Below, one piece after another: positions 7,294 through 64,000 of a DNA stretch of 64,000 nt. The notes under the pieces are model-generated. The model saw only the letters and a list, made by a program, of their open reading frames with translations, ran no database searches and had not been told where the DNA came from. The DNA is taken from positions 79,591 to 143,590 of the forward strand of contig JAVKGX010000005.1 in NCBI GenBank assembly GCA_031432545.1, read 5' to 3'. Both the position numbers and the translations under genes were made by a program. The first letter of the stretch is position 1; every line of letters begins with the position of its first letter. This stretch comes from Armatimonadota bacterium (GTDB lineage: Bacteria; Sysuimicrobiota; Sysuimicrobiia; Sysuimicrobiales; Sysuimicrobiaceae).

Positions 7294-9161
<1,868 letters not shown>

Positions 9162-9165
<4 letters not shown>

Positions 9166-12510: not shown

Positions 12511-12570
12511 GCACCGAACGTCATGGATCGGCAGGGGACGGCCATTGGTGAAGGGGCAAAGGGGGTTGCG

Positions 12571-13641: not shown

Positions 13642-13644
13642 GCG

Positions 13645-39947: not shown

Positions 39948-40296
39948 GGGGGCGAAAGGTTTCGACTGGGCAGGAAGAAGCAGGGCTGCGGGCCGAGGTC
40001 CCAGGGTCCTCGCAAATCAACCTGGAAGGCGAACAAACGCCAACAAGCCCGTTCTCGCCGCGGCCTAATCCCCGCGGCCGCCTTCCGGGTCTCGCCGGCG
40101 GATCCGGGTAAGGCGTCACCGGCCGGCTGCGCTGGGCCGCTCCGCCCTCGGCGGCACGGCTAAGACAGAGGGGGCTGGTGCCGCGGCGATCCCGCCTGCG
40201 GGAGCGCACGGCGCGAGACGAGAACGCAGGCTAGGCTCGTAGACGCTCTGCCCTCACCTGCTCAGGACGCGGGTTCGATTCCCGCCGCCTCCACCA
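39948..40296 (+). ncRNA. ssrA: Transfer-messenger RNA (tmRNA)
   Basis: About 349 bases. The 5' end GGGGGCGAAAGGTTTCGACTGG pairs through GGGGGCG (39948-39954) with CGCCTCC (40286-40292), followed by discriminator A and encoded CCA. The T-arm GGGTTCGATTCCC is at the 3' end. The tag frame starts at a resume GCA (40012) and ends at TAA (40066-40068), encoding ANQPGRRTNANKPVLAAA, a protease-targeting tag ending in small hydrophobic residues. The G-C rich pseudoknot segments lie between 40070 and 40240. It rescues stalled ribosomes with SmpB, encoded just upstream. Confidence 0.95.
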
Positions 40297-49252: not shown

Positions 49253-49354
49253 GTGCGCCTCCACGTGGTGGATGGATTCGAGTTCCGCCCGGGGCCCTCC
49301 CGCCGCGGACGTCGTGCCCCCGGAGCCGGCCCCTGGTCCCCATCCCCAGACCCC

Positions 49355-49363
49355 TGGTACAGT
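49355..49363 (+). promoter_or_regulatory. Extended -10 promoter element of tRNA-Pro (TGGTACAGT)
   Basis: TG-G-TACAGT, with the TGn extension and four of six in the -10, placed 12 bases before the mature tRNA 5' end. No -35 is seen. Confidence 0.4.
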
Positions 49364-49374
49364 GTTACCGGTTT

Positions 49375-49451
49375 CGGGGCGTGGCGCAGCCCGGCAGCGC
49401 GTCTGCTTTGGGAGCAGAAGGTCGCCGGTTCAAGTCCGGCCGCCCCGACCA
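49375..49451 (+). tRNA. tRNA-Pro (anticodon TGG)
   Basis: A 77-base cloverleaf with acceptor stem CGGGGCG/CGCCCCG (49375-49381 with 49441-49447), D-arm containing GGCGCAGCCCGGCAGCGC, anticodon loop TTTGGGA giving anticodon TGG, T-arm GCCGGTTCAAGTCCGGC, discriminator A and encoded CCA. Its T-arm, acceptor 3' strand and CCA are part of an 88-base sequence repeated 174 bases downstream. Confidence 0.93.
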
Positions 49452-49509
49452 TCACCTGCATGCGACATCCGAGGCGGGGTGCTGCAGCGGCGGGGTCGGT
49501 GCATCGGAA
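49422..49509 (+). repeat. Direct repeat copy 1 (tRNA-Pro 3' end plus flank)
   Basis: Eighty-eight bases covering the T-arm, 3' acceptor strand and CCA of tRNA-Pro plus 58 bases downstream. It matches 49596-49683 with a single mismatch (A at 49486, G at 49660). On the minus strand, copy 1 also holds a remnant of the C-terminal codons and stop of the Mo-hydroxylase gene ending in copy 2. Confidence 0.95.
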
Positions 49510-49529
49510 CCGGCGACCTTGGGCGGGGT

Positions 49530-49590
49530 CCCCGGCAAGTGGCGGGTGGGTGTATGGGGGCGGAGGGGAGTTGCGGGCCACTTGCTGGGG
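49530..49590. repeat. Inverted repeat inside the 86-base gap between the direct repeats
   Basis: Arms CCCCGGCAAGTGGC (49530-49543) and GCCACTTGCTGGGG (49577-49590) are complementary at 13 of 14 positions around a 33-base G-rich loop. It is a potential stem-loop or a remnant of a mobile-element end. No gene fits in this gap. Confidence 0.7.
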
Positions 49591-49595
49591 TGGAT

Positions 49596-49683
49596 TCGCC
49601 GGTTCAAGTCCGGCCGCCCCGACCATCACCTGCATGCGACATCCGAGGCGGGGTGCTGCGGCGGCGGGGTCGGTGCATCGGAA
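49596..49683 (+). repeat. Direct repeat copy 2 (tRNA-Pro 3' end plus flank)
   Basis: The second copy of the 88-base repeat. It contains a T-arm, 3' acceptor strand and CCA but no 5' half of a tRNA, so it is not a tRNA gene. The 3' end of the adjacent Mo-hydroxylase large-subunit gene (stop at 49628-49626) lies within it. Confidence 0.95.
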
Positions 49684-52028
49684 GCGGAACCTTCGGAGAT
49701 GGCCCGGACGATCGCCTCGGGGCTCAGGGGGCTTTCGAGCAGGCGAACTCCGAACGGACGGAGGGCGTCCTCCACCGCTGCGTTGATGACCGCCGGCACC
49801 GGTATCGTCCCGCCCTCGCCCACCCCCTTCACGCCCTCCGGGTTGCTGGGCGAGGGCACCTGCGTGTGAAAGAGGACCAGGTCCGGCATCTCCATGGCGG
49901 TGGGGATCAGGTAGTCCATGTAGGTGCGGACCAGCGGTTGCCCCTCGTCGTCCCACCGCAAGAACTCGTACAGGGCGTTGCCCAGCCCCTGCGCGAACCC
50001 GCCGACGATCTGGCCCCTGACGAGCTGGGGATTGATCTCCACACCGCAGTCGTGGCCGATCACGTAACGCAGGACGCGCACCTCCCCCAGATCCGGCAGC
50101 ACCTCCACGATAGCCGCGTGTACCCCGTAGGCGTAGTTGAGCGCTGTGCTGTCGAAGTGGTAGGTGGCCTCCAACCCAGGCGGTAGTTCCTCGGAGAAGC
50201 GCAGCTGGCGCGGCAGGCGCGTGGCATCGAGGTTCGGCCCGGAGGCCAGTTGCGCCAACTGGCGGAACGACAACGACCGAGACGGCGCGCCGCGGACCCG
50301 CACGACGCCTTCCGATACCTCGAGGTCCGTCGGCGAAACCTCCAGCAGCCGCGACGCCAGGTTGAGGATCTTGTCCCGCACCCGTGTGGCTGCGCCACTG
50401 GCCGCGTTGCCGGCGGCGACGGCGGACCGGCTGGCGAACGTGCCGATCCCGGTCGGGACTCCGGCTGTGTCGCCGACCGTGACCTCGACGTCCTCGTAAC
50501 GGACACCGAGGCGATGGGCGACGATCTGCGCCACCATCGTCTCGTGGCCCTGGCCCTGCGACGCGCAGCCCGCGAAGACCTGGACGCGCCCTGAGGCGTC
50601 CACCCTTACCGTGGCGGTCTCGTACGGACCGAGGCCCGACATCTCCACGTAGGGCACCACGCCGATGCCCAAGAACCGACCTTCGCGCCGCGCTCTGCGT
50701 TGCCGCTCGCGCCACGCAGGGTAGTCGAGTTCGGCTAGGGCGCGCTCCAGCATCGCCGGGTAGTCGCCGCTGTCGTAGACGACGCTGCCCAAACCGTCGC
50801 GCCGCGGCACGCCGGTGTCGTAGGGGAGGTCTTCGGGGCGGAGCAGGTTTCGTCGGCGCAGTTCCACAGGGTCGATGCCGACCTGGGCTGCAGCCAGGTC
50901 CAGCAGCCTCTCGATTGCAAACACGCCCTGCGGCCGGCCGGCGCCCCGATAGGGCGCTAGGGGCGGCTTGTTCGTGTACACGCAGACCACATCCACCGAC
51001 AGGGCCGGCAGCCGGTATGGCCCCGGAAGCGTCATCGCCGTGGTCAGGGGAGGCACAATCCCGAAGCTGGAGTCGTACGCGCCGTTGTCGTTGAGGATGC
51101 GGCCGCGCAGCCCGAGGATGCGGCCTTGGCCGTCGAGCGCCAGTTCGAGCTCCTGGAGTTGGTCGCGCTCCTGGTAGGTTGCCAGGAAGTCCTCGCTTCG
51201 GTCGCCGACCCACTTCACCGGACGCCCCAGTTCCAGCGCCAGCCGCGCCGCCAGCAGGTACTCGGGGTAGAAGCGGTTCTTCGCGCCGAATCCTCCGCCG
51301 ACGTCCGGGGCGATGACACGCACCTGCGCTTCGTCCAGACCGAGCAGGACGGCCAGGATGCGGCGGGCTGTGTGCGGCGACTGCGTGGTGAGCCAGACTG
51401 TGAGCGCCGGGCGCGGACCGCGCAGATCGGGTTCTGCCACGACCGCGCGTGTCTCCATCGCCTGTGGGCTGCAACGGCCGATTCGCAGCTGCGCACGCAC
51501 CACCGAAGCCGCCGCCATAAAGGCCGCGTCCGCATCCCCCACGCGGATGGGGACCCGTGCCATAAGATTCCCCGGGGCCTCGTCTGGGTGCAACTGCGCC
51601 GCGTCTGGGCGGAGGGCGGCTTCGACGTCCACGACGGGGGGAAGCGGATCGTAGTCCACCGCCACCAGGTCGGCTGCGTCCTCGGCCTCGTAGCGGTCCT
51701 GTGCCACGACCACCGCGATCGGCTCTCCCACGTAGCGGACCACGTCGGACGCGAGGACGTGGGGCAGCGCATGCCGCATCGAAGGATGCCCCACCACCGC
51801 CGGCAGCCGGGGCAGGGGTGGATCGAAGTCGGCCGCCGCCCTCGCCAGCGCGATGTCCGGCAGGGCGCGGGCGTGCGTGAGGTCCACGCGAACCAACCTG
51901 GCGTGTGCGTGGCTGCTGCGGACGATCGCCATGTGCAGCGTACCGGGCGGCTGGACGTCCCCCACGTAGCGCCCGCGCCCGGTGAGCAGCCGGACATCCT
52001 CCTTGCGGCGCAACGCTTGGCCGATCAC
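49626..52028 (-). CDS. Xanthine dehydrogenase-family molybdenum-binding subunit (copy B)
   Basis: An 800-residue large subunit of a Mo hydroxylase. It has RYVGDVQPPGTLHMAIVRSSHAHA, YVGEPIAVVVA, DVGGGFGAKNRFYPEYLLAAR, the substrate-loop APYRGAGRPQG, the cofactor-contact SQGQGHETMVAQI and the catalytic Glu in GVGEGGTIPVPAVINA. The AYRCSFR loop of CO dehydrogenase is absent, so it is a hydroxylase or dehydrogenase of a carbon substrate. It starts at a GTG overlapping the previous large-subunit stop and is the last gene of the minus-strand operon. Its C-terminal tail lies in a direct repeat. Confidence 0.9.
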   Translation of the reverse strand: MIGQALRRKEDVRLLTGRGRYVGDVQPPGTLHMAIVRSSHAHARLVRVDLTHARALPDIALARAAADFDPPLPRLPAVVGHPSMRHALPHVLASDVVRYVGEPIAVVVAQDRYEAEDAADLVAVDYDPLPPVVDVEAALRPDAAQLHPDEAPGNLMARVPIRVGDADAAFMAAASVVRAQLRIGRCSPQAMETRAVVAEPDLRGPRPALTVWLTTQSPHTARRILAVLLGLDEAQVRVIAPDVGGGFGAKNRFYPEYLLAARLALELGRPVKWVGDRSEDFLATYQERDQLQELELALDGQGRILGLRGRILNDNGAYDSSFGIVPPLTTAMTLPGPYRLPALSVDVVCVYTNKPPLAPYRGAGRPQGVFAIERLLDLAAAQVGIDPVELRRRNLLRPEDLPYDTGVPRRDGLGSVVYDSGDYPAMLERALAELDYPAWRERQRRARREGRFLGIGVVPYVEMSGLGPYETATVRVDASGRVQVFAGCASQGQGHETMVAQIVAHRLGVRYEDVEVTVGDTAGVPTGIGTFASRSAVAAGNAASGAATRVRDKILNLASRLLEVSPTDLEVSEGVVRVRGAPSRSLSFRQLAQLASGPNLDATRLPRQLRFSEELPPGLEATYHFDSTALNYAYGVHAAIVEVLPDLGEVRVLRYVIGHDCGVEINPQLVRGQIVGGFAQGLGNALYEFLRWDDEGQPLVRTYMDYLIPTAMEMPDLVLFHTQVPSPSNPEGVKGVGEGGTIPVPAVINAAVEDALRPFGVRLLESPLSPEAIVRAISEGSASDAPTPPPQHPASDVACR

Positions 52029-54328
52029 GTCTGCCGTCGCCCGCTGTGGTCGAGCAGGGCCAGAACGTACTCGGGCGTCAGGGGGATCCGCTGGACCTGC
52101 GCGCCGACCGCGTCGGACACGGCGTTGGCGATCGCCGCCGGTGCACCGATCGCGCCGCCTTCGGCCATGCCCTTCATCCCTCCGGGGCGGTCGGAGGGAT
52201 TTTCCAGATGCAGGATCTCGATTCCGTCAGGCATGTCCGTGGCTAGGGGCAGCAGGTAGTCCATGAACGTGCTGGCCAGGGGCTGGCCGTCCGGGCCGTA
52301 GACGGCGTGCTCGAGGACGGCTTCCCCCAGACCCTGCGCGATGGCGCCGTGGATCTGGCCGCGGACGATCCGGGCGTTGAGGACCCGACCGCAGTCCTCG
52401 ACGACCACGTACCGCAGGGGGCGCAGCGCGCCCGTGTGCGGGTCGACCTCGACTACGGCGAGGTGCGCGGCGTTGGAGAACGTGGCGGGCGGCGGGTCGA
52501 AGTACTCGACCGCTTCCAGCCCCGGCTGCAACGTCCCCGCCTTTCCCAGGGGGATCTTGTAGGCTGCCCGTGCGACCTCGTCGAACGTCACGGATCGGGA
52601 GAGGCTGCCGCGGACGCGGATCCGCCCTCCTTCCCACTCCAGGTCGCTCACGGCGGCTTCGAGCAAGGAGGAGGCGATCGCCAGCGCCCGCTCGCGCACA
52701 CGGAGGGCAGCACCGTACACAGCGCCCGCGCCGGCCACCGAGGTGCGGCTGCCGAAGGTGCCGGACCCATGGGGGCTCGCCCGGCTGTCGAATGGCTCCA
52801 CCTGAATGCGGTCGGCCGGTACCTGGAGCACCTCCGCGACGATCTGCGCCATCGTGGTCTCGTGGCCCTGTCCTTGGGAGGTGAAGCTCAGCGACACCCG
52901 CACGGAGCCCGACGGGTCGACGCGTACGGCAGCGGCTTCATGGCCCGGAATGTCCGTCATGCCGCGCCGTGCGAACGTCGCGGAGCCCATCCCCGTGTAC
53001 TCCGTGTAGCAGGCCACCCCGATCCCCAAAAGTCTCCCGCTGCGGGTCCGTTCGCGCTGCTGGTCGGCACGCAGGCGCTCGTAATCGGTCGCCTCGCACA
53101 GGCGCTGCAGCGCCTGGTGGAAGGAGCCACCGTCGTACGTCAGGCCGCTGGCGCTCTGATAGGGGAACGCGTCAGGGGAGATGAGGTTCCTCCTGCGCAC
53201 CTCCACCGCATCGAGGCCGACCTCGCGGGCCAGGCAGTCCATGGCCCGCTCCATGGCGAACGCGCCCACGGTCATCCCGACTCCGCGGTAGGCGCCGGTC
53301 GGCGGCTTGTTCGTGCAGACGGCGAGCACCTCGTACGCGTAGTGGTCGACCGCGTAGGGCCCCGGCAGGATCTGCGCCGCACCGAGCGGCTCCAGGGCGG
53401 CGGTGGTGGGGAATACGTGGTAGGCGCCGACGTCACCGACGACGCGGCCACGCAGCCCCAGCACGCGCCCCTCGGTCGTCGCCGCCACTTCCACCTCCAC
53501 TCGTTCCTCGCGTGCCTGGGTGGCGGCCGTCAGGTTCTCGCGCCGGTCCTCGACCCACTTCACCGGCCGACCGAGGCGCGCCGCCAGCCAGCAGACGACG
53601 ACGTCCTCCGGATACAGGTGCATCTTCTGACCGAAGCCACCCCCGGTGTCGGGCACCAAAAGACGGATCCGATGTTCCGGCAGCCCAAGGCAGGCGGCGA
53701 GGGCGGAACGGATGAGCGCCGGTACCTGGGTCCCAATCCAGACGTGGAGCATCTGCCCTTCGTAGGCAGCCAGAATCCCGCGGCCTTCCATCGGTGAGGC
53801 AGCGCACCGTGCAGACCGAACGTCGATGCAGACCGTGACGGGTGCGTGCCGAAACACCGCTTCCGGGTCCCCGCCGTGGTGCGACCTGTGGTACAGGATG
53901 TTGCTGGCGGCGTCGTGCAGCCGCGGGGCATCTGGGCGGAGGGCCGTCTCCGCGTCGGCGACGGTCGGCAGAGGATCGTAGTCGACTTCCACGCGTTCGG
54001 CCAGGTCTTCGGCTTCGTATCGATCTGCCGCGACGACCACGGCCACCGGCTCACCCACGTATCGGACGCGGTCGGCTGCCAGCGGCCACTGGGCGGTGGG
54101 TGTGAATCCGTCCGCATCCAGGCGTGGGGCGATCGGGTGCACACCCTCGAGATCCTCGTAGGTCCACACCCACTCCGCGGCCCGTCGCACGCGCAAAATC
54201 CGCGCATGGGCATGGGGGCTTCGCACGAACGCCGCATGGAGCGCCCCGGGCAGCCGTATGTCGTCCAGATACCTGGCCCTTCCGGACAGCAGCCGCGGGT
54301 CCTCGTGCCGTGTGATTCCCGCCGTCAT
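52025..54328 (-). CDS. Xanthine dehydrogenase-family molybdenum-binding subunit (copy A)
   Basis: A 767-residue paralogue encoded just upstream of copy B in the same operon. It has RYLDDIRLPGALHAAFVRSPHAHA, DTGGGFGQKMHLYPEDVVVC, loop GAYRGVGMTVGAFAMER, SQGQGHETTMAQI and catalytic Glu in GMAEGGAIGAPAAIANA. The substrate-loop sequence differs from copy B (GVGMT against GAGRP), suggesting two substrates or two steps handled by one electron-transfer pair. The ATG at 54328 overlaps the stop of the Fe-S subunit gene. Confidence 0.9.
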   Translation of the reverse strand: MTAGITRHEDPRLLSGRARYLDDIRLPGALHAAFVRSPHAHARILRVRRAAEWVWTYEDLEGVHPIAPRLDADGFTPTAQWPLAADRVRYVGEPVAVVVAADRYEAEDLAERVEVDYDPLPTVADAETALRPDAPRLHDAASNILYHRSHHGGDPEAVFRHAPVTVCIDVRSARCAASPMEGRGILAAYEGQMLHVWIGTQVPALIRSALAACLGLPEHRIRLLVPDTGGGFGQKMHLYPEDVVVCWLAARLGRPVKWVEDRRENLTAATQAREERVEVEVAATTEGRVLGLRGRVVGDVGAYHVFPTTAALEPLGAAQILPGPYAVDHYAYEVLAVCTNKPPTGAYRGVGMTVGAFAMERAMDCLAREVGLDAVEVRRRNLISPDAFPYQSASGLTYDGGSFHQALQRLCEATDYERLRADQQRERTRSGRLLGIGVACYTEYTGMGSATFARRGMTDIPGHEAAAVRVDPSGSVRVSLSFTSQGQGHETTMAQIVAEVLQVPADRIQVEPFDSRASPHGSGTFGSRTSVAGAGAVYGAALRVRERALAIASSLLEAAVSDLEWEGGRIRVRGSLSRSVTFDEVARAAYKIPLGKAGTLQPGLEAVEYFDPPPATFSNAAHLAVVEVDPHTGALRPLRYVVVEDCGRVLNARIVRGQIHGAIAQGLGEAVLEHAVYGPDGQPLASTFMDYLLPLATDMPDGIEILHLENPSDRPGGMKGMAEGGAIGAPAAIANAVSDAVGAQVQRIPLTPEYVLALLDHSGRRQT

Positions 54329-54819
54329 GGCTGTTGGCGAGCCGTAGACAGTGCCCGGGCGGCTGCCAGGATCGCATCGACGATCGAGAGGTATCCGGTG
54401 CAGCGGCACAAGTGACCTGCCAGCATCTCCCGCACCTGCTGTGGTGTCGGCTCCGGGTGGTCACGCAAGAATGCCACCGCGCTCATCAGGATGCCCGGCG
54501 TGCAGAACCCACACTGCAGGGCGTGATGGGCGGAGAAGGCCTCCTGAAGAAGGTGCAGGGACGTAGGTCCGCCCAGGCTCTCGACGGTCTCCACGCGGGC
54601 GCCCTCTACCTGCACCGCCAGCAGCAGGCAACTGCGAACGGGCCGACCGTCCACCAGCACCGTGCAGGCGCCGCACACGCCGTGTTCACACCCCAGGTGC
54701 GTTCCGGTCAGTCCAAGGTCGTCGCGCAGGGTGTCGGCGAGTGTCTTGCGCGTCTGGACCTCCACGGTGTGGACGGCGCCGTTGACGTTGAGCTGCAACC
54801 GCCGGCGGCGTGTGCTCAC
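54325..54819 (-). CDS. Xanthine dehydrogenase-family 2Fe-2S subunit
   Basis: A 164-residue small subunit carrying two 2Fe-2S clusters: plant-type Cys44, Cys49, Cys52 and Cys64 (GCEHGVCGACTVLVDGRPVRSC region) and the helical-domain Cys103, Cys106, Cys138 and Cys140 (QCGFCTPGI; HLCRCTGY). It passes electrons from the Mo centre to FAD in the neighbouring subunit. The GTG at 54819 overlaps the stop of the FAD subunit gene, and its own stop overlaps the copy A large subunit. Confidence 0.94.
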   Translation of the reverse strand: MSTRRRRLQLNVNGAVHTVEVQTRKTLADTLRDDLGLTGTHLGCEHGVCGACTVLVDGRPVRSCLLLAVQVEGARVETVESLGGPTSLHLLQEAFSAHHALQCGFCTPGILMSAVAFLRDHPEPTPQQVREMLAGHLCRCTGYLSIVDAILAAARALSTARQQP

Positions 54820-55688
54820 AGATCGCCTCCTGCTCGTTGAGCGGCCCGCCGGAGCGCACGTGCGGCGAGGACGGCGGCCGCGCGCCTGCGGTAGGCTCCG
54901 CTCGCGTGGACGTCGTCGTCCGGCTGAAGCGCCTCGGCGGCCGCGCGGGCGGCCTCCTCCCATAGCTCCTCGGTGGGTCTGGCGCCCACCAGCAGCCCTT
55001 CGATCCCGGTCGGCGTGACCGGCACCGGCCCGCATCCGGCGAACGCCAGTCGCGCTGCGACGATGCGGCCATCGTCGATGCGCACGGTGGCTGCGACGCC
55101 GACGAGCGCGTAGTCGCCGTGGCGGCGGGCCAGCTCCTCGAAGGCGCCGCCCGTTCCGGCCGGCGGGAGGGGAAACCGCACCTCCACCAGGATCTCCTCG
55201 GGATCCAGCGCGGTCGTCAGGTACGTCCGGAACAGGTCCCTCGCCCGGATGGTCCTGCGAGCCCCCCGCCGCGCCGCGACCACCTCGCCGTCCAGACACA
55301 GCAGCAGCGCGGGCAGTTCGGCGGCGGGGTCGGCGTGCGCGATGGAACCGCCGACGGTGCCGCGGTTGCGGATCGGCGGGTGGCCGACGTGCCGCAGAGT
55401 CTCGATCAGCAGGGGCAGGTGGCGACCGACCTCCGCAGATGCCTCCGCGTCAGCCTGGCGAGTCATCGCGCCCACCACCAGCGTGTCGTCGGCGACTTCG
55501 ACGTAAGCGAGCGCGGCGATCCGGTTGAGGTCCACCACGACCCCGGGCCTGGCCAGGCGCATGTTCAGTAGCGGCATCAGGCTCTGGCCACCTGCCAGGA
55601 CCTTCGCGTCCGTACCGTGCTCGGCGAGCAGGTCGAGGGCCTGGTCGAGGGTGCGCGGATCGTAGTAGTCGAAGACAGGCGGTTTCAC
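54816..55688 (-). CDS. Xanthine dehydrogenase-family FAD-binding subunit
   Basis: A 290-residue CoxM/XdhB-type subunit: FDYYDPRTLDQALDLLAE, the FAD-binding VLAGGQSLMPLLNMRLARP, NRGTVGGSIAHADPAAELPALLL and the C-terminal domain YRRRAAAVLAARALRRA. It takes electrons from the 2Fe-2S subunit and donates to NAD+, quinone or another acceptor. The GTG at 55688 overlaps the livM stop, so the enzyme genes follow the transporter genes without a gap. Confidence 0.93.
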   Translation of the reverse strand: MKPPVFDYYDPRTLDQALDLLAEHGTDAKVLAGGQSLMPLLNMRLARPGVVVDLNRIAALAYVEVADDTLVVGAMTRQADAEASAEVGRHLPLLIETLRHVGHPPIRNRGTVGGSIAHADPAAELPALLLCLDGEVVAARRGARRTIRARDLFRTYLTTALDPEEILVEVRFPLPPAGTGGAFEELARRHGDYALVGVAATVRIDDGRIVAARLAFAGCGPVPVTPTGIEGLLVGARPTEELWEEAARAAAEALQPDDDVHASGAYRRRAAAVLAARALRRAAQRAGGDL

Positions 55689-56686
55689 CGTTGCGTCCCT
55701 GCTCCTGCCGGCGCGGCATCGGCGGGGGCGGAACGGGCCGCCACGCGCCCCCGCGGCCGCGCCCCCAACGCCACCAGCACGCCCCTAGGCATCACCAGCG
55801 AGATCACCAAGAGGATCACGCCGTAGACGGCGATGGCCGGGATGGGGAGTTGCACGTAGTTCTTCAACACCACGTCGATTCCGCGCAGCGTGACCGCGCC
55901 GACCACGGGACCCCAGACCAGACCGCTGCCCCCGATCATCGCCGCGATGACCGGGAACAGGCTGCGGTCGGCACCCAGGACAACGGAGACGTCGATGTAG
56001 CCGGAGTGCAGGCCGAAGACACCGCCGGCCATCGCGGTCGGCATGGCTCCCAGCGCCAGCGCGGTCTGCTTGGTGCGGAAACGATCGATGCCGCTGGCTT
56101 CCGATGCGAGTTCGCTTTCCCGAATCGCCGTCATCGCCAGCCCCAACCGGCTGCCGGCCAGCAGGTGGTTCAGGGCCAGCGAACCGACCGCGAGGGCAAG
56201 CGTCAGCAGGTAAGCAGCCCTCAGCGACAGGTAGTGCTGGGCCGGAACGTACAAACCGTGCGAGCCGCCCGTCAGATCCGGAAGGTTGTCCACGAGCAGA
56301 CGCAGCAGCAGCAACAGGGCGAACGTGGCCACTGCGAAGTAGGCGTCGCGTAGCCGCAGCAACGGGTAGGCGACGATGGCCGCAAAGCCGGCGGCCACGA
56401 GGCCTCCGGACAGCACCGCGGCTGCTACGCCCGCGGGGCCAGCTTCGCCGAGGGTCGGCACGCGCAGCAGCAACAGGAAGGTCGTGTAGGCGCCGATGCC
56501 AAAGAAGGTGGCCTGACCTAGGTTGTACAGACCGAGGAACCCGCCCAGCAAGTCGTAGTTGCACGCAAGCGTGATCAGCAGGAACGTGAACAGCAGCGCG
56601 GTCACCAGGTCGCGTGTCAGCACGAGCGGCGCCACCAGCAGGGCACCCAACCCCATCGCCAGACCCCACCATCTGAAGGCGTTCAT
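55685..56686 (-). CDS. livM: Second Liv-type ABC permease LivM
   Basis: A 333-residue permease with the LivM features YDLLGGFLGLYNLGQATFFGIGAYTTFLLL, RDAYFAVATFALLLLLRLL, SRLGLAMTAIRESELASEASGI (ATPase-contact loop) and PVVGAVTLRGIDVVL. Unlike the first Liv operon, this LivM is not fused to an ATPase; the C-terminus is a short basic/Pro-Ala tail. It overlaps both neighbours by four bases, showing that uptake and hydroxylase genes form one transcript. Confidence 0.92.
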   Translation of the reverse strand: MNAFRWWGLAMGLGALLVAPLVLTRDLVTALLFTFLLITLACNYDLLGGFLGLYNLGQATFFGIGAYTTFLLLLRVPTLGEAGPAGVAAAVLSGGLVAAGFAAIVAYPLLRLRDAYFAVATFALLLLLRLLVDNLPDLTGGSHGLYVPAQHYLSLRAAYLLTLALAVGSLALNHLLAGSRLGLAMTAIRESELASEASGIDRFRTKQTALALGAMPTAMAGGVFGLHSGYIDVSVVLGADRSLFPVIAAMIGGSGLVWGPVVGAVTLRGIDVVLKNYVQLPIPAIAVYGVILLVISLVMPRGVLVALGARPRGRVAARSAPADAAPAGAGTQR

Positions 56687-57576
56687 CGCAGCAGACCTCC
56701 CAGCAGACCTGAGGGGCGCAGGAGGAGGACGGCGAACAGGACCAGCAGGTAGGTCAACGGCGACCAGACCGGTCCGATCCAGAAACCCGTGAACACCTCG
56801 GCCACGCCGAGGGCGAGCCCCGCCCACAGGGCGCCGGGCAGGTTGCCCACCCCGCCCGCAGCGGAGACCGTGAAGGCGATCATGGTCAAGCGGAGTCCGT
56901 CGTAGGGGCCCAGCGGTACGGCGACGACGTAGAACGTCCCTGCGAGGGCGGTCGCGGCGATCCCCAGCGTCAGGATCGTGCGCGAAACGCGTCGCGGGTC
57001 GAGTCCGATGACGAGGGCGCCCGTTCGGTTCTGGGCGACCGCCCGTGCCTCTTTGCCGATGCGGGTACGGGTGAGGAACAGGTGAAACAACACGACCGCC
57101 GCTGCGGAGAACGCGAGCACGCTGGCCCGCGGGCCGGATACCGTGACGTCGCCGAGCCGCAGCGACGTGACGCCGAGCTGGAGCGCGAAGATCGGCTGCG
57201 GCTCGACCGCACGGGCCCAGTACACGCCCAGCAGCGACTCCAACGCGAGGGCCAAGCCAAAAGTGGCCATGATCGAACCCACCAGGATCTCGGTGGTAGA
57301 GCGCGCCGTCAGCGGCCGAACCAGCGCGGCCTCGAAGAGACCGCCCACGACCAGGAACACCACAACGACCACCGCCAGTCCCAGGGCGAAGGGCATCCCG
57401 ACATGGCGGACGAGCAGCGTACCCAAGGCAGCCCCTAAGACCATCACGACGCCGTGCGACACGTTCAACACGTGCGTCGTCGCGAGGATCAAAGAGAAGG
57501 CGAAGGCCATCAGCGCGTACAAACCTCCCAACACCACGCCACCCAGCAGCAGTTCGAAGAAAAGGGGCCAGCTCAT
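56683..57576 (-). CDS. livH: Second Liv-type ABC permease LivH
   Basis: A 297-residue permease with about eight hydrophobic segments: GGLYALMAFAFSLILATTHVLNVSHGVVMVLG, RTRIGKEARAVAQNRTGALVIGL (ATPase-contact loop) and GGVGNLPGALWAGLALGVAE. It pairs with LivM in the membrane channel. Its ATG lies eight bases after the livF stop, and its stop overlaps the livM start. Confidence 0.92.
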   Translation of the reverse strand: MSWPLFFELLLGGVVLGGLYALMAFAFSLILATTHVLNVSHGVVMVLGAALGTLLVRHVGMPFALGLAVVVVVFLVVGGLFEAALVRPLTARSTTEILVGSIMATFGLALALESLLGVYWARAVEPQPIFALQLGVTSLRLGDVTVSGPRASVLAFSAAAVVLFHLFLTRTRIGKEARAVAQNRTGALVIGLDPRRVSRTILTLGIAATALAGTFYVVAVPLGPYDGLRLTMIAFTVSAAGGVGNLPGALWAGLALGVAEVFTGFWIGPVWSPLTYLLVLFAVLLLRPSGLLGGLLR

Positions 57577-57583
57577 CTCGACC

Positions 57584-58285
57584 TCACACCGCCAAGTAGG
57601 TGGTGCGCAGATGGGGACTGTCCAGCAGATCGGACGCCGAGCCCTCCATCACCACACGACCTGCCTCCATCACGTAGCCGCGGTGCGCGACCGCCAACAC
57701 CTCGTGCACGTGCTGCTCGACAACCAGCAACGTCAGGCCGCGCCGCTTGAGAAGCCGGAGTTTCTCGTACAGGGCGTCGACGACGCGCGGTGCCAGTCCC
57801 AGGGACGGCTCGTCCAGCATCAGCAACGACGGGCTCGCCATGAGTGCGCGGGCGATGGCCAGCATCTGCTGCTCCCCGCCCGACAGCGTGCCGGCCAGCT
57901 GGCGCCTACGATCGCGCAGCACCGGGAAGAGTTCGTACACTTCCGCTTCGAGGTCGGCAAAGGTGCGCCCGCGCCCGGGCACGAAGCCCAGCTCCAGGTT
58001 CTCCGCAACCCGCATCAGCGGGAACAGCTCGCGACCCTCGGGAACCAAAGCCATGCCGACCCGCACGCGGGCAGCGGGGGATGTGCTGGCCAGCGACCGG
58101 CCCGCATAGCGGACGTCCCCCGCCGCGAGGGGGAGCAGCCCCTGGACCGCGCGCAGCGTGCTGGTCTTGCCTGCGCCGTTGGGACCCAGCAGGGCCACCG
58201 TCTCCCCCTCCGCCACGCGGAACGTCGCATCCCAGACGGCGTGGAAGTCGCCGTACTTCACGTGGAGGCCGACGACTTCAAGCAC
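57584..58285 (-). CDS. livF: Second Liv-type ABC ATPase LivF
   Basis: A 233-residue ATPase: Walker A LLGPNGAGKTSTLRAVQG, LivF-type ALVPEGRELFPLM, signature LSGGEQQMLAIARALM, Walker B LLMLDEPSLGLAP and VEQHVHEVLAVA. The GTG at 58285 lies within the end of livG (eight-base overlap) after GAGGTG. It energises transport together with LivG. Confidence 0.93.
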   Translation of the reverse strand: MLEVVGLHVKYGDFHAVWDATFRVAEGETVALLGPNGAGKTSTLRAVQGLLPLAAGDVRYAGRSLASTSPAARVRVGMALVPEGRELFPLMRVAENLELGFVPGRGRTFADLEAEVYELFPVLRDRRRQLAGTLSGGEQQMLAIARALMASPSLLMLDEPSLGLAPRVVDALYEKLRLLKRRGLTLLVVEQHVHEVLAVAHRGYVMEAGRVVMEGSASDLLDSPHLRTTYLAV

Positions 58286-59024
58286 CCAGCACCTCGGCGC
58301 GGCGCTCGCCCAAGTACGCCCGGACAACCTGGGGATCGGCCATCACCGCCTCCGGAGGGCCGTCGGCGATCAGGCGCCCCTGATCGAGGACGACCACTCG
58401 ATCGCACAGCCGGGCGGTGAGGCGTACGTTGTGCTCGACCATGACGATCGTGAGGCCCAGCTCTTCGTTGAGGCGCCGTACCGTCTGCGCCATATGCTCG
58501 AGGTCCTCCTGCACGAGGCCCGCCATGACCTCGTCCAGGCAGAGCAGGCGTGGCCCGGTGCCCAGGGCCCGTGCCATCTCCAGCCGCTTGCGCTCCGGGA
58601 GGTTGAGGGAGTCGGCTGGTTGGTCAGCGAGATCGTCCAGGTGCAGCCAGTGCAGGATGCGGCGCGCCTGGGCTCGAGCCTGCCCGACGGTCGCCCCGCG
58701 CCCGTACCGCCCGTACAGGTAGCTCACCGTCACGTTGTCGAGGACAGTCATCTGCGCGAAGGGTTGCACGATCTGGAACGTGCGCACCAGGCCGAGCCGA
58801 CAGACGCGATGGGCGGGGATCCCCGTCACGTCCCGCCCCGCGAACACGACGCGACCGCCATCCGGACGCAGGAAACCGGAGACGACGTGGAACAGTGTCG
58901 TCTTGCCGGCTCCGTTGGGGCCGATCAGGCCCAACCTCTCGCGCTCGGTGACCGTGAAGCTCACTCCGTCGAGAGCGATGACGCCCCCGAATCGCTTGCG
59001 GATGTCTCGGACCTCCAGCAGCAC
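58278..59024 (-). CDS. livG: Second Liv-type ABC ATPase LivG
   Basis: A 248-residue ATPase: FGGVIALDGVSFTV, Walker A IGPNGAGKTTLFHVVSG, VRTFQIVQPFAQMTVLDNV, a diverged signature SLNLPERKRLEMARAL (usual in this LivG branch), Walker B LLCLDEVMAGL and MVEHNVRLTARLCDRV. The GTG at 59024 follows GGAGGG. It lies 17 bases after the livK stop. Confidence 0.92.
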   Translation of the reverse strand: MLLEVRDIRKRFGGVIALDGVSFTVTERERLGLIGPNGAGKTTLFHVVSGFLRPDGGRVVFAGRDVTGIPAHRVCRLGLVRTFQIVQPFAQMTVLDNVTVSYLYGRYGRGATVGQARAQARRILHWLHLDDLADQPADSLNLPERKRLEMARALGTGPRLLCLDEVMAGLVQEDLEHMAQTVRRLNEELGLTIVMVEHNVRLTARLCDRVVVLDQGRLIADGPPEAVMADPQVVRAYLGERRAEVLGA

Positions 59025-59041
59025 CGCACCCTCCGACGTAC

Positions 59042-60259
59042 CTACCGAGGGCGCCGGTACGCGGTGTCGGCGAGCTCGCGCGGCCAGACCACGTTCACCT
59101 TCCCGTCCTGGATCTGCGCGACGTACGCCGTCTGGTTGCCGTGCCCGTTCAGCACCTGGCCGGCGACCGTCAGGTTCCAGCTGAAGCGGAACGCGCCGAT
59201 GACCGTGCGGACTTCGAACTGCGGATCGCGCATCGTCTGCGCGATGGCCTCACGGTCCAGGCGGCCGGTTCGCTCGATCGCCGCCCGGATGACGTCCAGG
59301 GCCACGATGCGGTTGGCCACCCAGGGCAGGTCGTAGGGGTCGCGTCCCATGCGCTGGAAGATGCGCCGCGAGCGCTCGTCCAGGGCACGGCGTGCGGTGT
59401 AGGTGGCCCCGACCACGTCCTCGGCGGTTCCGCCCACCGCCTGGACGAACGGGAAGGCCAGCGCCCGCACGTACGTCTCCTTGGGCCGCAATCCCAGTTC
59501 GCGCGCCTGGCGCAAAAACGCGATCGACGGGGCGGTCCAGAGGCCCAGGAACATCACGTCGGGATTGAGGGCGCGCCACCGTGCCAGGACCGCCGAGAAG
59601 TCCGAGTGACCGAACGGGACGATCTGCTGGTCGACGATGCGCAGTCCGGCCTCGCGCGCGTACGCGACGGCACCGGCGGTCACGTCGCGCGTATGTGCGC
59701 TGTCTTCGTACACGAACGCCACCGTGCGTACGGGTGTGCCCGCGGAAACGCTTTGGCCTACAAGCTCGAAATAGCTGCGCGTCCACCACAGCCCGGGTGC
59801 CAGGGTCCCGAACAGGTATCGGAAGTTGCGGGCGAAGATCGCGCGGTCGTTGGCCTCCATCGCGACCATCGGGATGCGCAGGCGCTCGGCGACGGTGGAC
59901 GCCCGCAGGGTGATCGGGCTGGTCGCCGGGCCGAAGAACATCAGCACGTTGTCGACCGCCGCCAACCGTTCGTACAGCTCCACCGCCTTGTCCGCCGAGC
60001 TCTCGTCGTCGTACAGGACCATCTCGACGGGCAGCCGCCGGCCGAGTTCGCGGACCATGATCCCGCCGTCCTCGTTGATCGCGCGGACCCACTCCCGCAT
60101 GAACTGCTGGTAAACGGGACCCCACTCGGCCGCAAACGGACCGGTCACCGCGAGCGTGCCGCCGAGTCGGATGCTGGGCGCCGGCGCCGCCATCGCTCCC
60201 ACCGTCAGGAGGCTGAGGGTGATCGCCGCCACGATCCGCACTGCCCACGCCTTGTTCAT
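59042..60259 (-). CDS. livK: Second Liv-type ABC substrate-binding protein
   Basis: A 405-residue exported protein: signal peptide VRIVAAITLSLLTVGAMAAP, then SIRLGGTLAVTGPFAAEWG, the ligand-region FFGPATSPITLRAST, MEANDRAIFARNFRYLFG and FVYEDSAHTRDVTAGAVAYA. It resembles LivK-type proteins that bind aromatic acids, amides or amino acids. The ligand is presumably the substrate of the catabolic enzymes encoded in the same operon. A strong AGGAGGGAG precedes the ATG. Confidence 0.9.
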   Translation of the reverse strand: MNKAWAVRIVAAITLSLLTVGAMAAPAPSIRLGGTLAVTGPFAAEWGPVYQQFMREWVRAINEDGGIMVRELGRRLPVEMVLYDDESSADKAVELYERLAAVDNVLMFFGPATSPITLRASTVAERLRIPMVAMEANDRAIFARNFRYLFGTLAPGLWWTRSYFELVGQSVSAGTPVRTVAFVYEDSAHTRDVTAGAVAYAREAGLRIVDQQIVPFGHSDFSAVLARWRALNPDVMFLGLWTAPSIAFLRQARELGLRPKETYVRALAFPFVQAVGGTAEDVVGATYTARRALDERSRRIFQRMGRDPYDLPWVANRIVALDVIRAAIERTGRLDREAIAQTMRDPQFEVRTVIGAFRFSWNLTVAGQVLNGHGNQTAYVAQIQDGKVNVVWPRELADTAYRRPR

Positions 60260-60291
60260 GGTTCTCCCTCCTCGTGTGTACTCTCCGCCTT

Positions 60292-61089
60292 TCAGACGTC
60301 CATGATCGCCTTTCGCTGACCGCCGTCGAGCGTGATCCACGCGCCGTTCATGAAGCTGGCGCGCTCCGAAGCCACGAACACGACCACCGCGGCCACCTCC
60401 TCGGGTGTGCAGATGCGCCCCAGCGGGATGCTCTCGATGGCCCGCCGGCTGGCCTGTTCGATCGACATCCCCTTGTCCCGCGCGTAGGCGGCGACCAGAC
60501 CATCCCACCGCTCCGTGGCCACCGGGCCGGGGTTGACGGCGTTGACGAGGATCCCGTGAGGGCCGTACTGCTCGGCCAGCGCGGAGGTCATCGCGAGGTC
60601 GGCGGCGTTGGCGGCGCTGGCGGTCAGCTCCCAGTACGCCGGTTTGATCCCATCGTTGCCGACCACGTTGACGATCCTCCCGCCGCCCCGCCGCAGCAGG
60701 TGGGGGACGGCGGCCTTGGTGCAGCGGACGTACCCCATGAACTTCAGCTGGAGGCTGAGTTGCCAGTCGTCCTCGGTGAGGTCCAACAGCAGCCCGCCGG
60801 GGGAGGCGCCGGCGCAGTTGACGAGGACGTCGAGGCCGCCGAAGTGCGCCGCAGCCGCGTCGACGCACCGCTGCGCGTCCTCCCACTTCGTCATGTCCCC
60901 CGCAATCCAGAAGACTGGACTGCCGGTCTCGGTGCGGATCGCATCCGCGGCCGCGCGCAAAGCGGGCTCGCCCCGCGCGCAGATCGCCACGCGAGCGCCT
61001 TCGCGGGCGAACTCGAGTGCGCAGGCTCGCCCGATGCCCTTGGACCCGCCGGTAATGAACACCACCTTGTCTCGGAGTCCCAGTTCCAT
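60292..61089 (-). CDS. Atypical short-chain dehydrogenase/reductase family protein
   Basis: A 265-residue SDR with an intact NAD(P)-binding end (VVFITGGSKGIGRACALEFARE), structural NCAGASPGG and C-terminal VNPGPVATERWD and SFMNGAWITLDGG. The catalytic YxxxK is missing: the aligned stretch is TASAANAADLA, placing Ala157 and Asn161 where Tyr and Lys should be. Either it uses another mechanism (some SDR subgroups with AGGAGN-type loops do) or it has lost dehydrogenase activity. AAGGAGGG precedes the ATG. It stands between the nitrilase-type gene and livK. Confidence 0.82.
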   Translation of the reverse strand: MELGLRDKVVFITGGSKGIGRACALEFAREGARVAICARGEPALRAAADAIRTETGSPVFWIAGDMTKWEDAQRCVDAAAAHFGGLDVLVNCAGASPGGLLLDLTEDDWQLSLQLKFMGYVRCTKAAVPHLLRRGGGRIVNVVGNDGIKPAYWELTASAANAADLAMTSALAEQYGPHGILVNAVNPGPVATERWDGLVAAYARDKGMSIEQASRRAIESIPLGRICTPEEVAAVVVFVASERASFMNGAWITLDGGQRKAIMDV

Positions 61090-61118
61090 CCTTGCCCTCC
61101 TTCCCGCCCCGCAGAAGA

Positions 61119-61982
61119 CTATCGCGACTCGTACACGACGGACGTCGCCCGTGCCAACTCCCCATAGAGTTCGGGTCGACGGTCGGCGACGAGATCCATC
61201 TCGGGGGTGCGGCGCGATCCTTCGGCCGCATGCAGATCGCAGTCCGCGACCAACAGCGCTTCCTCCGCGTGCGGACCGGGTCCGGCGACGGCGAACCCAC
61301 TGGGCGCGAACACACCGCTGCAGCCGAGCGCGCGCACCCCTCCGTCTTGGCCTGCGCGGTTGGCGCAGGCGATCCACAGCCGGCTGCCGTATGCGTGGCC
61401 GGCAGCCAGGTAGTCCGCACCGCACCACCCGCGGTCGTCCCACGGCCGGGACTTGCCACGGTCTGTCCAGGTCGTCGGCACACAGACGATGTGCGCGCCC
61501 CTGAGCATCAGCAGGCGGACCACTTCCGCGAACCTGAGGTCGTAGCAGATCAGCATTCCGATCCGGCCCAAGGGTGTCTGCCAGACACCGGGTGCCGCGT
61601 CCCCTGGGTCGAACACCTCTCGCTCGTGGTGGTACAGGTGGGCTTTGCGATAGGCGCCGACCAGGCCCGCCGGTCCTACGAGCACGGCCGTGTTGTACAG
61701 ACGCGTCCCCAAACGCTCCGGGAGCCCTGCGACCAGGTGCATCCCCGTCTGCGCCGCAATCGCCGTCCACTGCTGCACCGTCGGGCCGTCCAACGGCTCG
61801 GCTGCGGATTCCACGTCAGCGCGAGAGCAAAAGTCGTACGACACCGTGGACAACTCCGGGAGCACGGCGAGCGCCGCTCCGGCGTCCGCCGCGCAGCCGA
61901 GCAGATCGGCGATGCGCTCCCGCGTGGATGTGGGGTCGTCCCAGCATCCCGCCATCTGGATCACGGCCACCCGTACCTTCAT
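61119..61982 (-). CDS. Nitrilase-superfamily carbon-nitrogen hydrolase
   Basis: A 287-residue C-N hydrolase with the Glu-Lys-Cys triad at Glu43 (LPELSTVSYD), Lys113 (YRKAHLYHHE) and Cys146 (LICYDLRFAE). Such enzymes cleave amides, carbamoyl groups or nitriles; the amidase/carbamoylase branch fits the YDLRFAE form better than true nitrilase. In an operon with a Mo hydroxylase and a ring-cleavage-like enzyme it could hydrolyse an open-chain amide intermediate. It overlaps the VOC gene by four bases. Confidence 0.88.
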   Translation of the reverse strand: MKVRVAVIQMAGCWDDPTSTRERIADLLGCAADAGAALAVLPELSTVSYDFCSRADVESAAEPLDGPTVQQWTAIAAQTGMHLVAGLPERLGTRLYNTAVLVGPAGLVGAYRKAHLYHHEREVFDPGDAAPGVWQTPLGRIGMLICYDLRFAEVVRLLMLRGAHIVCVPTTWTDRGKSRPWDDRGWCGADYLAAGHAYGSRLWIACANRAGQDGGVRALGCSGVFAPSGFAVAGPGPHAEEALLVADCDLHAAEGSRRTPEMDLVADRRPELYGELARATSVVYESR

Positions 61983-62392
61983 GGCCCGTCCTGCAGGGGC
62001 TGCGTGAGTTCGACCAAAAGGCCTTCGACGAGGGGTTGGGCGAGGAACGCGATGAGCGTGTTGCCGGCCCCCGGGCGCGGGTTCGCCTCGCGGAGTTCCA
62101 CCCCTCGCGCACGCAGCCAGCGCATCGCGTCTTCAATGTCATCGACCTGAAGCGCGACGTGTTGTATCCCCTCGCCGTGCTCGTCCAGCCAACGCCGGTT
62201 GAAGTCGTCGGCCAGGGGCTGGATGAGTTCCACGAGCGTTCCCGCCACGGGCACGAACCCGATCCGCAGGACCCCCGGCCCGTAGTCTTCCCAGTGTTGG
62301 ACCTCCAGTCCCAGGGCGTCGCGCAACGTCCGGGCGACCGCCTGCGCGTCGCGCACGACCACGCCGATGTGGTGGATTCCGCGTACCCTCAT
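61979..62392 (-). CDS. VOC-family protein (methylmalonyl-CoA epimerase-like)
   Basis: A 137-residue two-module vicinal-oxygen-chelate protein: MRVRGIHHIGVVVRDAQAVA, LVELIQPLADD, GIQHVALQVDDIEDAMRWL and LVELTQPL give the His/Glu/His/Glu metal-ligand pattern of methylmalonyl-CoA epimerase. VOC proteins also include dioxygenases and isomerases, so epimerase is only the nearest likeness. It overlaps both neighbours by four bases. Confidence 0.85.
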   Translation of the reverse strand: MRVRGIHHIGVVVRDAQAVARTLRDALGLEVQHWEDYGPGVLRIGFVPVAGTLVELIQPLADDFNRRWLDEHGEGIQHVALQVDDIEDAMRWLRARGVELREANPRPGAGNTLIAFLAQPLVEGLLVELTQPLQDGP

Positions 62393-63057
62393 GGGTCGAC
62401 TAGGGCTGCGACCCGCGCCGGTCCGCCGTTTCCTCCTCTGACCGGGACGGGCATCGCGATCAGCGTGAAATGCTGCCGCCCGATCCGATCCAGGTTGATC
62501 AGGTTCTCGATGAGGCAGACGTTCGCTCCCAAAGTGATCCGGTGGACCGGATACTTGGGTTGTCCCGCCGGCTTGGCAGGCCCGCCGTCGACGGGGAAGT
62601 CCACGGCCAGCGCCCGCGCGCCCCGTTCGACCAGCCAGCGCGCCGCCTCTTCCGACAGGTACGGGTTGTCCTTGTACAGCGACGGATCGTTCCAGTGCGC
62701 CTGGGCCCACCCGGTCCACAGGACCACGCGTCGATCCTGTAGCTCCGAGGGACCTTGGATGGCGCCGACGAGGTGATCGACCATCAGTGGTTCTCCCGGC
62801 CGCGCCCCAGAGCGTAAGTCCAGCATCACGGCCGGACCGTTCAGCCACTCCAGGGGCACGCGGTCGATGGTCAGTCCGTCGGGCACGAAGTGGTAGGGGG
62901 CATCGACGTGGGTGCCGGTGTGGATGCTGAACGTGGCAAAGCCGGTGGACAGACCGTGCAGTTCGTGGTGGTGGATGGGCACGTAGTAGATGTGCGGGTG
63001 GCCGGGGACGGGTTGGACTTCTGGGCCCCAGGGGATCGTCAGGTCGACCCACCGCAT
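62389..63057 (-). CDS. Cyclase-family metal-dependent hydrolase (kynurenine formamidase-like)
   Basis: A 222-residue protein of the cyclase family (PF04199 type) with the metal-binding signature HTGTHVDAPYHF (His46, His50, Asp52, His56) and DFPVDGG. Members hydrolyse N-formyl amides (kynurenine formamidase) or cyclic amides and imides. In this operon it could deformylate or open an amide product. The ATG at 63057 lies five bases after the stop of the preceding gene. Confidence 0.87.
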   Translation of the reverse strand: MRWVDLTIPWGPEVQPVPGHPHIYYVPIHHHELHGLSTGFATFSIHTGTHVDAPYHFVPDGLTIDRVPLEWLNGPAVMLDLRSGARPGEPLMVDHLVGAIQGPSELQDRRVVLWTGWAQAHWNDPSLYKDNPYLSEEAARWLVERGARALAVDFPVDGGPAKPAGQPKYPVHRITLGANVCLIENLINLDRIGRQHFTLIAMPVPVRGGNGGPARVAALVDP

Positions 63058-63061
63058 CCGC

Positions 63062-64000
63062 TCACTCCCCGACCAGCAACATGCCATCGCGTACGAGGAC
63101 TTCGCCGTCCACCTCCACCGTCGGGCGCAGCAGCAGGCCGTCGAGGTGGAGTTCACTTGTCACCGTTCCCCCGATGACGTGATTGTCGCCGATCGCGACG
63201 TGGACCGAGCCCCGGCTCTTCTTGTCCTCGGTCATGGATCCGATCAGACGCGCCCGGTCGTTGGTGCCGATAGCGAACTCCGCTACGTTGGTGGCGCCCT
63301 CATCCGCGGCGGCGATGAGTTGCTTCAGTTGCGCGGCGCCGGTGCCTCCGTCGATGCGGACGACGCGTCCGGCGCGGACGGCCAGACGGATGGGCTCGTC
63401 CAGCCGCCCGATCCCGTCCATCGTGTGCTCGACGACCACCACACCCTCCGCGCTGCCTTCCACCGGCGCGATCGCCGCCTCCCCATCGGGCATGGCGGCG
63501 AAGGTTCCCGGACCGTTCACGCGTCCGGTGAGCGCCACCGCGGTGCGCCCGGCCACCGACAGGGTCAAGTCCGTTCCGGCGGGCGTGCGAACCCGGATCG
63601 TGCGTGCCTCGCTCAGTCGGCGCGCCACGGTGGTGGTGACCGCTTCGATCCGATCGTAGTCGGCCAGCATCGCAGGCCCGGTCATGATCTCCTCGGTGAT
63701 GCCGCGCAGGACCAGCACCCGGGCACCCTGGCGCAGGGCTTGCTGGGTCGCATCGGTGTGGGTGATCGCGTACGTGACGGGCTGAATGATCACGTTGGCG
63801 GCGCGCATCGCACCCGCCACGATCGGCGGGGGCTCGTTGCCGTGCGCCCGACGCGGGGTCATGCATACGAGCACGGGTTCGGCGCCGGCTTCCCTGGCGG
63901 CCTCCAGGATCGCTTGCGCGATGGGTAGCGTCTTGGTGTCCGCGACGATGCAGACTTGCTCTGCCACGCGGACCCGGGCGCAGGTGCGCACGACGTTCCG
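63062..64000 (-). CDS. NicX/AmpS-like metalloenzyme (2,5-dihydroxypyridine dioxygenase or aminopeptidase T family), 5' end missing
   Basis: The frame is open to the right edge, so the N-terminus lies outside. Visible are about 312 codons: NVVRTCARVRVAEQVCIVADTK, PIAQAILEAAREAGAEPVLV, RLSEARTIRVRTPAGTDLTLS, VRIDGG, NVAEFAIGTNDRAR and the C-terminal metal region SVHVAIGDNHVIGG with SELHLDGLLL (HxD). This family includes aminopeptidase T-type peptidases and NicX, the Fe-dependent dioxygenase that opens the 2,5-dihydroxypyridine ring. The operon context favours a catabolic enzyme, but sequence alone does not decide. Confidence 0.78.
   Translation of the reverse strand, partial: RNVVRTCARVRVAEQVCIVADTKTLPIAQAILEAAREAGAEPVLVCMTPRRAHGNEPPPIVAGAMRAANVIIQPVTYAITHTDATQQALRQGARVLVLRGITEEIMTGPAMLADYDRIEAVTTTVARRLSEARTIRVRTPAGTDLTLSVAGRTAVALTGRVNGPGTFAAMPDGEAAIAPVEGSAEGVVVVEHTMDGIGRLDEPIRLAVRAGRVVRIDGGTGAAQLKQLIAAADEGATNVAEFAIGTNDRARLIGSMTEDKKSRGSVHVAIGDNHVIGGTVTSELHLDGLLLRPTVEVDGEVLVRDGMLLVGE

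Follow-up and report, generated by a model that had tools for sequence, protein, structure and literature searches.

What is an uninterrupted run of fourteen genes for, if it joins a molybdenum (Mo) hydroxylase, a Liv-type importer and several amide-type hydrolases to a metalloenzyme reminiscent of the pyridine-ring dioxygenase NicX? The run occupies one end of a stretch of 64,000 nucleotides (the window, positions 79591-143590 of contig JAVKGX010000005.1, here C5) from an Armatimonadota bacterium of the phylum Sysuimicrobiota (assembly GCA_031432545.1, here G000; 2.19 Mb, 21 contigs, rated 100% complete). Judged from its sequence, the locus is real, conserved, multi-importer and catabolic. 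From gene content, gene order, families, catalytic residues and conservation we infer a substrate class, an order of reactions and a hydrolytic ring opening: it seems to us reasonably probable that the fourteen genes belong, as one half, to a larger catabolic locus for the import and degradation of an N-heteroaromatic compound or a cyclic amide or ureide, probably nucleobase-like or hydantoin-like, by oxygenase-free steps. What is new is a combination of genes from known families, together with an uncharacterised clade of M29-fold proteins; a search of the literature for a comparable set of genes turned up no helpful match. The closest named relatives are metagenome genomes labelled CSP1-3 or "Armatimonadota". 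The uncultured phylum CSP1-3, described as Sysuimicrobiota (PMC11604079), is poorly known, and carbon fixation has been the main subject of its descriptions; a conserved locus for the use of an organic substrate rich in nitrogen would give it a further source of carbon and nitrogen, and would offer a starting point for cultivation.

The gene run and its conservation

All fourteen genes lie on the minus strand, from the end of the window down to position 49626, and every product was assigned to its family above the Pfam gathering score, in agreement with the families named in an earlier note on this DNA. The close coupling described there was also found: in transcription order the intergenic gaps are +4, -4, -4, +29, +32, +17, -8, +7, -4, -4, -4, -4 and -4 nt, that is, from -8 to +32 nt. 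A single operon-like unit is supported on this sequence evidence. The run is thus as the note had it, although its start falls outside the window, since C5 stops exactly where the window does (position 64000), so that the gene at 63062 lacks its 5' end. The last gene is closely followed by a tRNA-Pro (TGG) gene on the plus strand (49375-49451), and a scan of 49200-49800 for promoters and terminators found neither kind. Riboswitches, which might have given a clue to the ligand, were sought with Rfam, and tRNAs were the sole matches.

When gene order was compared in related genomes, as the note had proposed, the first five genes emerged as a core. They encode the M29-fold protein, a cyclase-family hydrolase (Cyc1), a VOC protein, a nitrilase-superfamily amidase and an SDR-fold protein, and they occur in the same order, followed by Mo subunits, in G001, G002 and G003, which represent three other genera of another family. 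The core is therefore present in four genera of the phylum, and because its order is conserved in other genera the run is beyond chance. In the near-complete genome G001 the core, a Liv importer, two Mo subunits and XRE, BMP, isochorismatase and cupin genes form one run. Identity to the counterparts in G001-G003 is 72-85% for most proteins of the module (60-68% for the VOC protein and the nitrilase), compared with 61-71% for RNase PH and YebC, and the core is missing from the nearest genomes of the source family; on these identities and absences, exchange of the module between families is likely.

The run probably continues for about 16 genes on a second contig, C16, as far as can be judged from the assembly. 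Following the assembly past position 64000, we found that the first 316 bp of C16 (C16:1-316) correspond to window positions 63685-64000 with two mismatches, and that joining the contigs gives an M29 frame of 323 aa, the same length as in relatives, with a TTG start overlapping the stop of a GntR gene. The join is supported by the same GntR-M29 adjacency in other genomes. Upstream on C16, all on the strand of the run and with no gap larger than 77 nt, are the GntR/FCD regulator (346-1095) and 15 more genes: two cupins (1115-1495 and 1498-1863), an isochorismatase-family amidase (1845-2537), a BMP-type importer (2552-7144), a second cyclase-family hydrolase, Cyc2 (7191-7943), an NMT1/Ssu importer (7992-11553), an M20 hydrolase (11631-12932) that scores best as an ArgE/DapE deacylase, and another cupin followed by an XRE-cupin regulator (13355-14008).

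This second half has its own distribution. Among 43 genomes, an ortholog of the isochorismatase is present only in the four core genomes and in G029 (on separate contigs from the core in two), a co-occurrence expected by chance at 4e-5 if relatedness is ignored. The second half consists of XRE, BMP, isochorismatase, cupin, Cyc2 and further cupin genes in G002, and in G003 of a Mo subunit, M20, a cytosine-deaminase-like amidohydrolase, an Ssu importer, a 2Fe-2S protein, BMP and isochorismatase. Its neighbours in G029 are a Mo subunit, Cyc2, a cytosine-deaminase-like amidohydrolase and a hydantoinase/dihydropyrimidinase-like enzyme. The amidohydrolases of G003 and G029 score 348 and 213 bits, respectively, against PRK07572. 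These neighbours point to a class of compounds rather than to one compound, since none reaches a curated cut-off.

Divergent from the run, C16 also encodes a HyuAB pair resembling caprolactamase (577 and 301 bits, where the cut-offs are 1000), accompanied by an Asp/Glu racemase, a further HyuB and a dipeptide importer (L007:14838-18670, L008:4620-7167), possibly a second cyclic-amide locus.

The M29-fold protein

The short M29-fold metalloenzyme (63062 to beyond 64000) was assigned from Pfam M29 (74 bits), a tree and a fold comparison. Its best solved relative by sequence is NicX (1.7e-8), followed by AmpS (5e-4), with an identity to NicX of 22-23%. The AlphaFold model (pLDDT 95.5) matches NicX, the 2,5-dihydroxypyridine 5,6-dioxygenase (PDB 7CN3), with a Z of 34.5 over 302 residues at 2.6 A, and aminopeptidase T with a Z of 22.2; everything ranked lower than the crocagin proteins (Z 15.9) was set aside as a partial match. 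With NicX the protein shares a compact fold over nearly its full length, and the His and Asp of the HxD motif. However, iron binding and activity of NicX need His265, Ser302, His318 and Asp320 (PMC7910607), and in the M29 protein these columns read Glu, Ala, His and Asp. Thus, of the "NicX/AmpS-like" description in the earlier note, the fold holds, NicX being the nearest, whereas the ring opening typical of NicX does not, Glu and Ala having replaced His265 and Ser302.

The M29 protein does keep the five ligands of a two-metal site (E174, E241, H267, H285 and D287, in the numbering of the 312-aa window frame), as found in aminopeptidase T, AmpS and PepS; in Lmo1603 the metal-ligand residues of M29 aminopeptidases are needed (PMC4661694). 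It differs from these enzymes in length (about 325 aa against 366-418 aa) and in having, in all four core orthologs, a His for the active-site Tyr (Tyr315 of Lmo1603). A maximum-likelihood tree of 69 rows separates NicX and aminopeptidase T into two groups, each with 100/100 support, and places the core M29 proteins in neither. C14 of the same genome encodes a genuine paralog of aminopeptidase T, whereas no NicX-type paralog was found in the genome (here and below, genome-wide absences rest on searches of the genome assemblies). A NicX identity is rejected on the iron ligands and the tree, and an identity as aminopeptidase T, firm membership of which the note had named as contrary to its proposal, is not accepted either, given the placement outside that clade and the missing Tyr. 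The NicX fold and the five M29 ligands, taken together, give the protein as modelled a NicX architecture with a hydrolase-type two-metal site.

Members of this short M29 clade are common in catabolic clusters and are usually annotated as aminopeptidases. Because a NicX fold is here combined with a two-metal hydrolase site, that annotation is probably mistaken, and the clade may offer a route to understanding the origin of a pyridine-ring dioxygenase. One may also consider, as a speculative extension that we think doubtful, that the short M29 protein is a hydrolase opening the lactam or imide ring of an N-heterocycle in an oxygenase-free N-heteroaromatic pathway, and that NicX arose from such an enzyme by exchange of its metal site.

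Several relatives were observed elsewhere. In plasmid records the M29 search did not find this module; it returned genes annotated as "aminopeptidase" among catabolic genes of various kinds, with carboxylate transporters nearby in several cases. In G004 (G004:C5:11230-11847, L040:10001-10606) a relative 68-70% identical adjoins a BMP-type importer; it is open in the C-terminal two thirds only, with an in-frame TAA reported, and looks decayed. Tandem M29 genes lie by Ssu-type importer genes in G005, G041, G011 and G017 (L090:5803-7950, L098:679-2783, L099:9303-11452 and L100:8317-10484, respectively), with an Asp/Glu racemase at three of the four loci. The second copy of each tandem has a His at the column of NicX His265 and an HxD motif, and is without the hydrolase ligands; these copies are better NicX-like candidates than the gene in the window, yet they do not group with NicX in the tree.

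Hydrolases, Mo hydroxylase and importers

For the cyclase-family, VOC and nitrilase proteins, Pfam matches and catalytic or metal residues bear out the earlier assignments. Cyc1 (62389-63057; Pfam Cyclase, 104 bits) is a metal hydrolase carrying HTGTHVDAPYH at residue 46, a motif of the HxGTHxDxPxH type. Its nearest relatives in the PDB are cyclase-family proteins, KynB (kynurenine formamidase) and isatin hydrolase, and its relatives in plasmid records are all below 40% identity. We rejected it as a KynB equivalog, its score against the arylformamidase model TIGR03035 (62 bits) being far below the cut-off of 223. The single-domain VOC protein (61979-62392; Pfam Glyoxalase_4) scores 83 bits against the methylmalonyl-CoA epimerase model (cut-off 115), and its likely metal ligands H8, E55, H78 and E128 are conserved in an alignment of relatives. 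Four-ligand sets belong to VOC proteins of the isomerase/glyoxalase kind and sets of two His and one carboxylate to extradiol dioxygenases, and the predicted set of this protein is isomerase/glyoxalase-like rather than extradiol-dioxygenase-like. The nitrilase-superfamily amidase (61119-61982; Pfam CN_hydrolase, 151 bits) has the catalytic triad E43, K113 and C146, with the motif CYDLRFAE.

The SDR-fold protein (60292-61089; Pfam adh_short) ranks with the most conserved proteins of the module (72-85% to orthologs in G001, G002, G003 and G020). The fold and the nucleotide motif, GGSKGIG, are as expected, but in an alignment of five orthologs Gly, Ala and Asn replace the catalytic Ser, Tyr and Lys, at columns that we take from comparison with FabG. 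Since the Ser-Tyr-Lys triad is absent, the protein cannot be counted as an ordinary dehydrogenase. Its closest solved structure, 6jh7, apparently also misses the Tyr and the Lys, and indicates no function.

At the other end of the run Pfam confirms a xanthine-oxidase-family Mo hydroxylase with full domains and the active-site Glu motif. It comprises a FAD subunit (54816-55688; FAD_binding_5 and CO_deh_flav_C), a 2Fe-2S subunit (54325-54819; Fer2 and Fer2_2) and two Mo-binding large subunits, MoL2 (52025-54328; MoCoBD_1/2 and Ald_Xan_dh_C, with an AYRGVGM loop) and MoL1 (49626-52028, with a PYRGAGR loop). The closest PDB matches of MoL1 are 6-hydroxypseudooxynicotine dehydrogenase and quinoline 2-oxidoreductase, and CO dehydrogenase matches it almost as well. 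Those two N-heterocycle enzymes share the FAD/2Fe-2S/Mo architecture and the active-site Glu, and the AYRGVG loop recurs in MoL2; unlike them, the present operon has two unlike Mo subunits. An MoL2-type subunit is common to all four core genomes (52-54% identity to the Mo subunit beside the core in G001-G003), whereas MoL1 is not orthologous to the second Mo subunit of the relatives. AYRCSFR is the motif of true form I CO dehydrogenases, an identity rejected here because neither loop has it. The paired Mo subunits of G001 and G002 (L075:2245-6869 and L039:13736-18423) have no adjoining FAD or 2Fe-2S gene, and one of each pair is without the usual YRG loop and QGQG motif.

The note's complete LivKGFHM transporter, of the Liv (HAAT) type, was recovered with all five components: the binding protein LivK (59042-60259; Peripla_BP_6, 171 bits, and PDB matches), the ATPases LivG (58278-59024; ABC_tran and BCA_ABC_TP_C) and LivF (57584-58285; ABC_tran), and the permeases LivH (56683-57576) and LivM (55685-56686), both BPD_transp_2. 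In a single pairwise alignment, LBP residues 102 and 226 are Asn and Ala in LivK and Ser79 is kept, the pocket residues coming partly from PMC6983066. LivK is 79-81% identical to its counterpart in G001. The importer beside the core varies, since besides the similar LivK of G001 there is a dissimilar Liv set in G003 and none in G002. The uptake system that the note assigned to the pathway is complete but not the sole one, BMP and NMT1/Ssu importers being encoded in the same presumed run.

What the locus may degrade

In the favoured scheme the substrate would be taken up by the Liv system, with the neighbouring BMP and NMT1/Ssu systems also taking part. The Mo hydroxylase would hydroxylate a ring carbon with oxygen from water, giving a lactam or imide; a metal hydrolase (of the cyclase family, or the M29-fold enzyme) would open the ring hydrolytically; the nitrilase, isochorismatase-family and M20 enzymes would release amide or carbamoyl nitrogen, and the VOC protein would carry out a rearrangement. 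Ring opening is probably hydrolytic, because no ring-cleaving oxygenase was found. As the note had said, no NicC-like monooxygenase is in the window; a NicC-type FAD monooxygenase was found nowhere in the genome assembly, where the only clear FAD_binding_3 enzyme is of the salicylyl-CoA-hydroxylase type and lies on C6. Needing no oxygenase, such a pathway would fit the facultatively anaerobic lifestyle that has been proposed for this phylum (PMC11604079).

The general proposal of an N-heteroaromatic or cyclic amide pathway remains the best fit, with the second half in relatives lying beside cytosine-deaminase-like and hydantoinase-like genes. In this the relatives recall pyrimidine and hydantoin gene sets (cytosine deaminase, dihydropyrimidinase, RutB-like amidase), such enzymes standing beside their BMP-isochorismatase-cyclase block; they are absent from the window, however, and all matches are under curated cut-offs. 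Several observations weigh against this reading. Against models with a defined heterocycle substrate, every enzyme stays below the curated cut-off, and the Mo subunits also resemble glyceraldehyde dehydrogenase-like proteins and, nearly as closely as N-heterocycle enzymes, CO dehydrogenase-like ones. Since G020 has Cyc1, VOC and SDR together without M29 and nitrilase, the latter two may be accessory. Short M29 relatives are also found in clusters that contain carboxylate transporters and do not resemble heterocycle pathways. Finally, the contig join depends on the 316-bp overlap and its two mismatches.

Other explanations were weighed against the same evidence. The locus might scavenge peptides or modified amino acids, with M29 and M20 peptidases, nitrilase and isochorismatase amidases, Liv import of amino acids, and a Mo enzyme oxidising a released aldehyde. 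The M29 ligands match aminopeptidases, the M20 protein looks like a deacylase, glyceraldehyde dehydrogenase models give good scores with the FAD, FeS and Mo subunits, and in G001 the core has genes for an M24 peptidase and an oligopeptide importer next to it in divergent orientation, G002 looking alike. One would not expect, however, an M29 protein outside the aminopeptidase T clade with its active-site Tyr replaced, a true aminopeptidase T encoded elsewhere, or cytosine-deaminase-like and hydantoinase-like neighbours in relatives, and we consider this explanation unlikely. An even smaller chance attaches to Cyc1 being the kynurenine formamidase of tryptophan breakdown, in a locus that degrades an aromatic amide or kynurenine-type compound. 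Cyc1 does match the arylformamidase model and KynB structures, and C6 has a kynureninase-like gene, a CoA-ligase and the monooxygenase just mentioned; but the score is the sub-threshold one given above, C6 is a different locus, and the core is conserved next to Mo subunits in other genera.

Slighter still is the case for a nic-type nicotinate or hydroxypyridine pathway, in which the 63062 protein would open the ring oxygenolytically as NicX does. The Pseudomonas nic cluster (NicAB, NicC, NicX, NicD, NicE and NicF) has in common with the present locus a Mo hydroxylase, a NicX-fold protein, an isochorismatase-family amidase and an Asp/Glu racemase, the last lying further away here; the isochorismatase-family and racemase genes on C16 belong to the families of NicF and NicE, and NicX is the closest fold. 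The ligand residues already contradict it, though, there is neither a NicC-like enzyme nor a NicX-type paralog in the genome, and the hydroxylase architecture is unlike that of the control nic cluster. The present locus also lacks an alpha/beta-hydrolase deformylase, has an M29 protein with two-metal hydrolase ligands, and adds Liv, BMP and Ssu importers with cyclase-family, VOC, nitrilase and SDR genes. Hence, of the analogues of every nicotinate-pathway activity that the note had counted, the Mo hydroxylase and several amide-type hydrolases stand and the NicX ring opening does not. That the Mo enzyme is a CO dehydrogenase, with the rest of the run loosely linked, appears extremely improbable: the NCBIfam model that it matches best belongs to the CO dehydrogenase group and has the status of an exception model, and there is a report of carboxydotrophy in the phylum (PMC11604079), but the scores are under the cut-off, the loops are PYRGAGR and AYRGVGM, and the MoL2-type subunit tracks the catabolic core.

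The genome also seems to have a tryptophan/aminobenzoate locus, made up of the C6 genes (G000:C6:40000-50000, L135): the kynureninase-like gene, the salicylyl-CoA-hydroxylase-type monooxygenase, a benzoate-CoA-ligase-family gene and what may be the start of a tryptophan 2,3-dioxygenase gene. Elsewhere in the window, on the plus strand at 39948-40296, we observed a tmRNA gene with the tag ANKPVLAAA.

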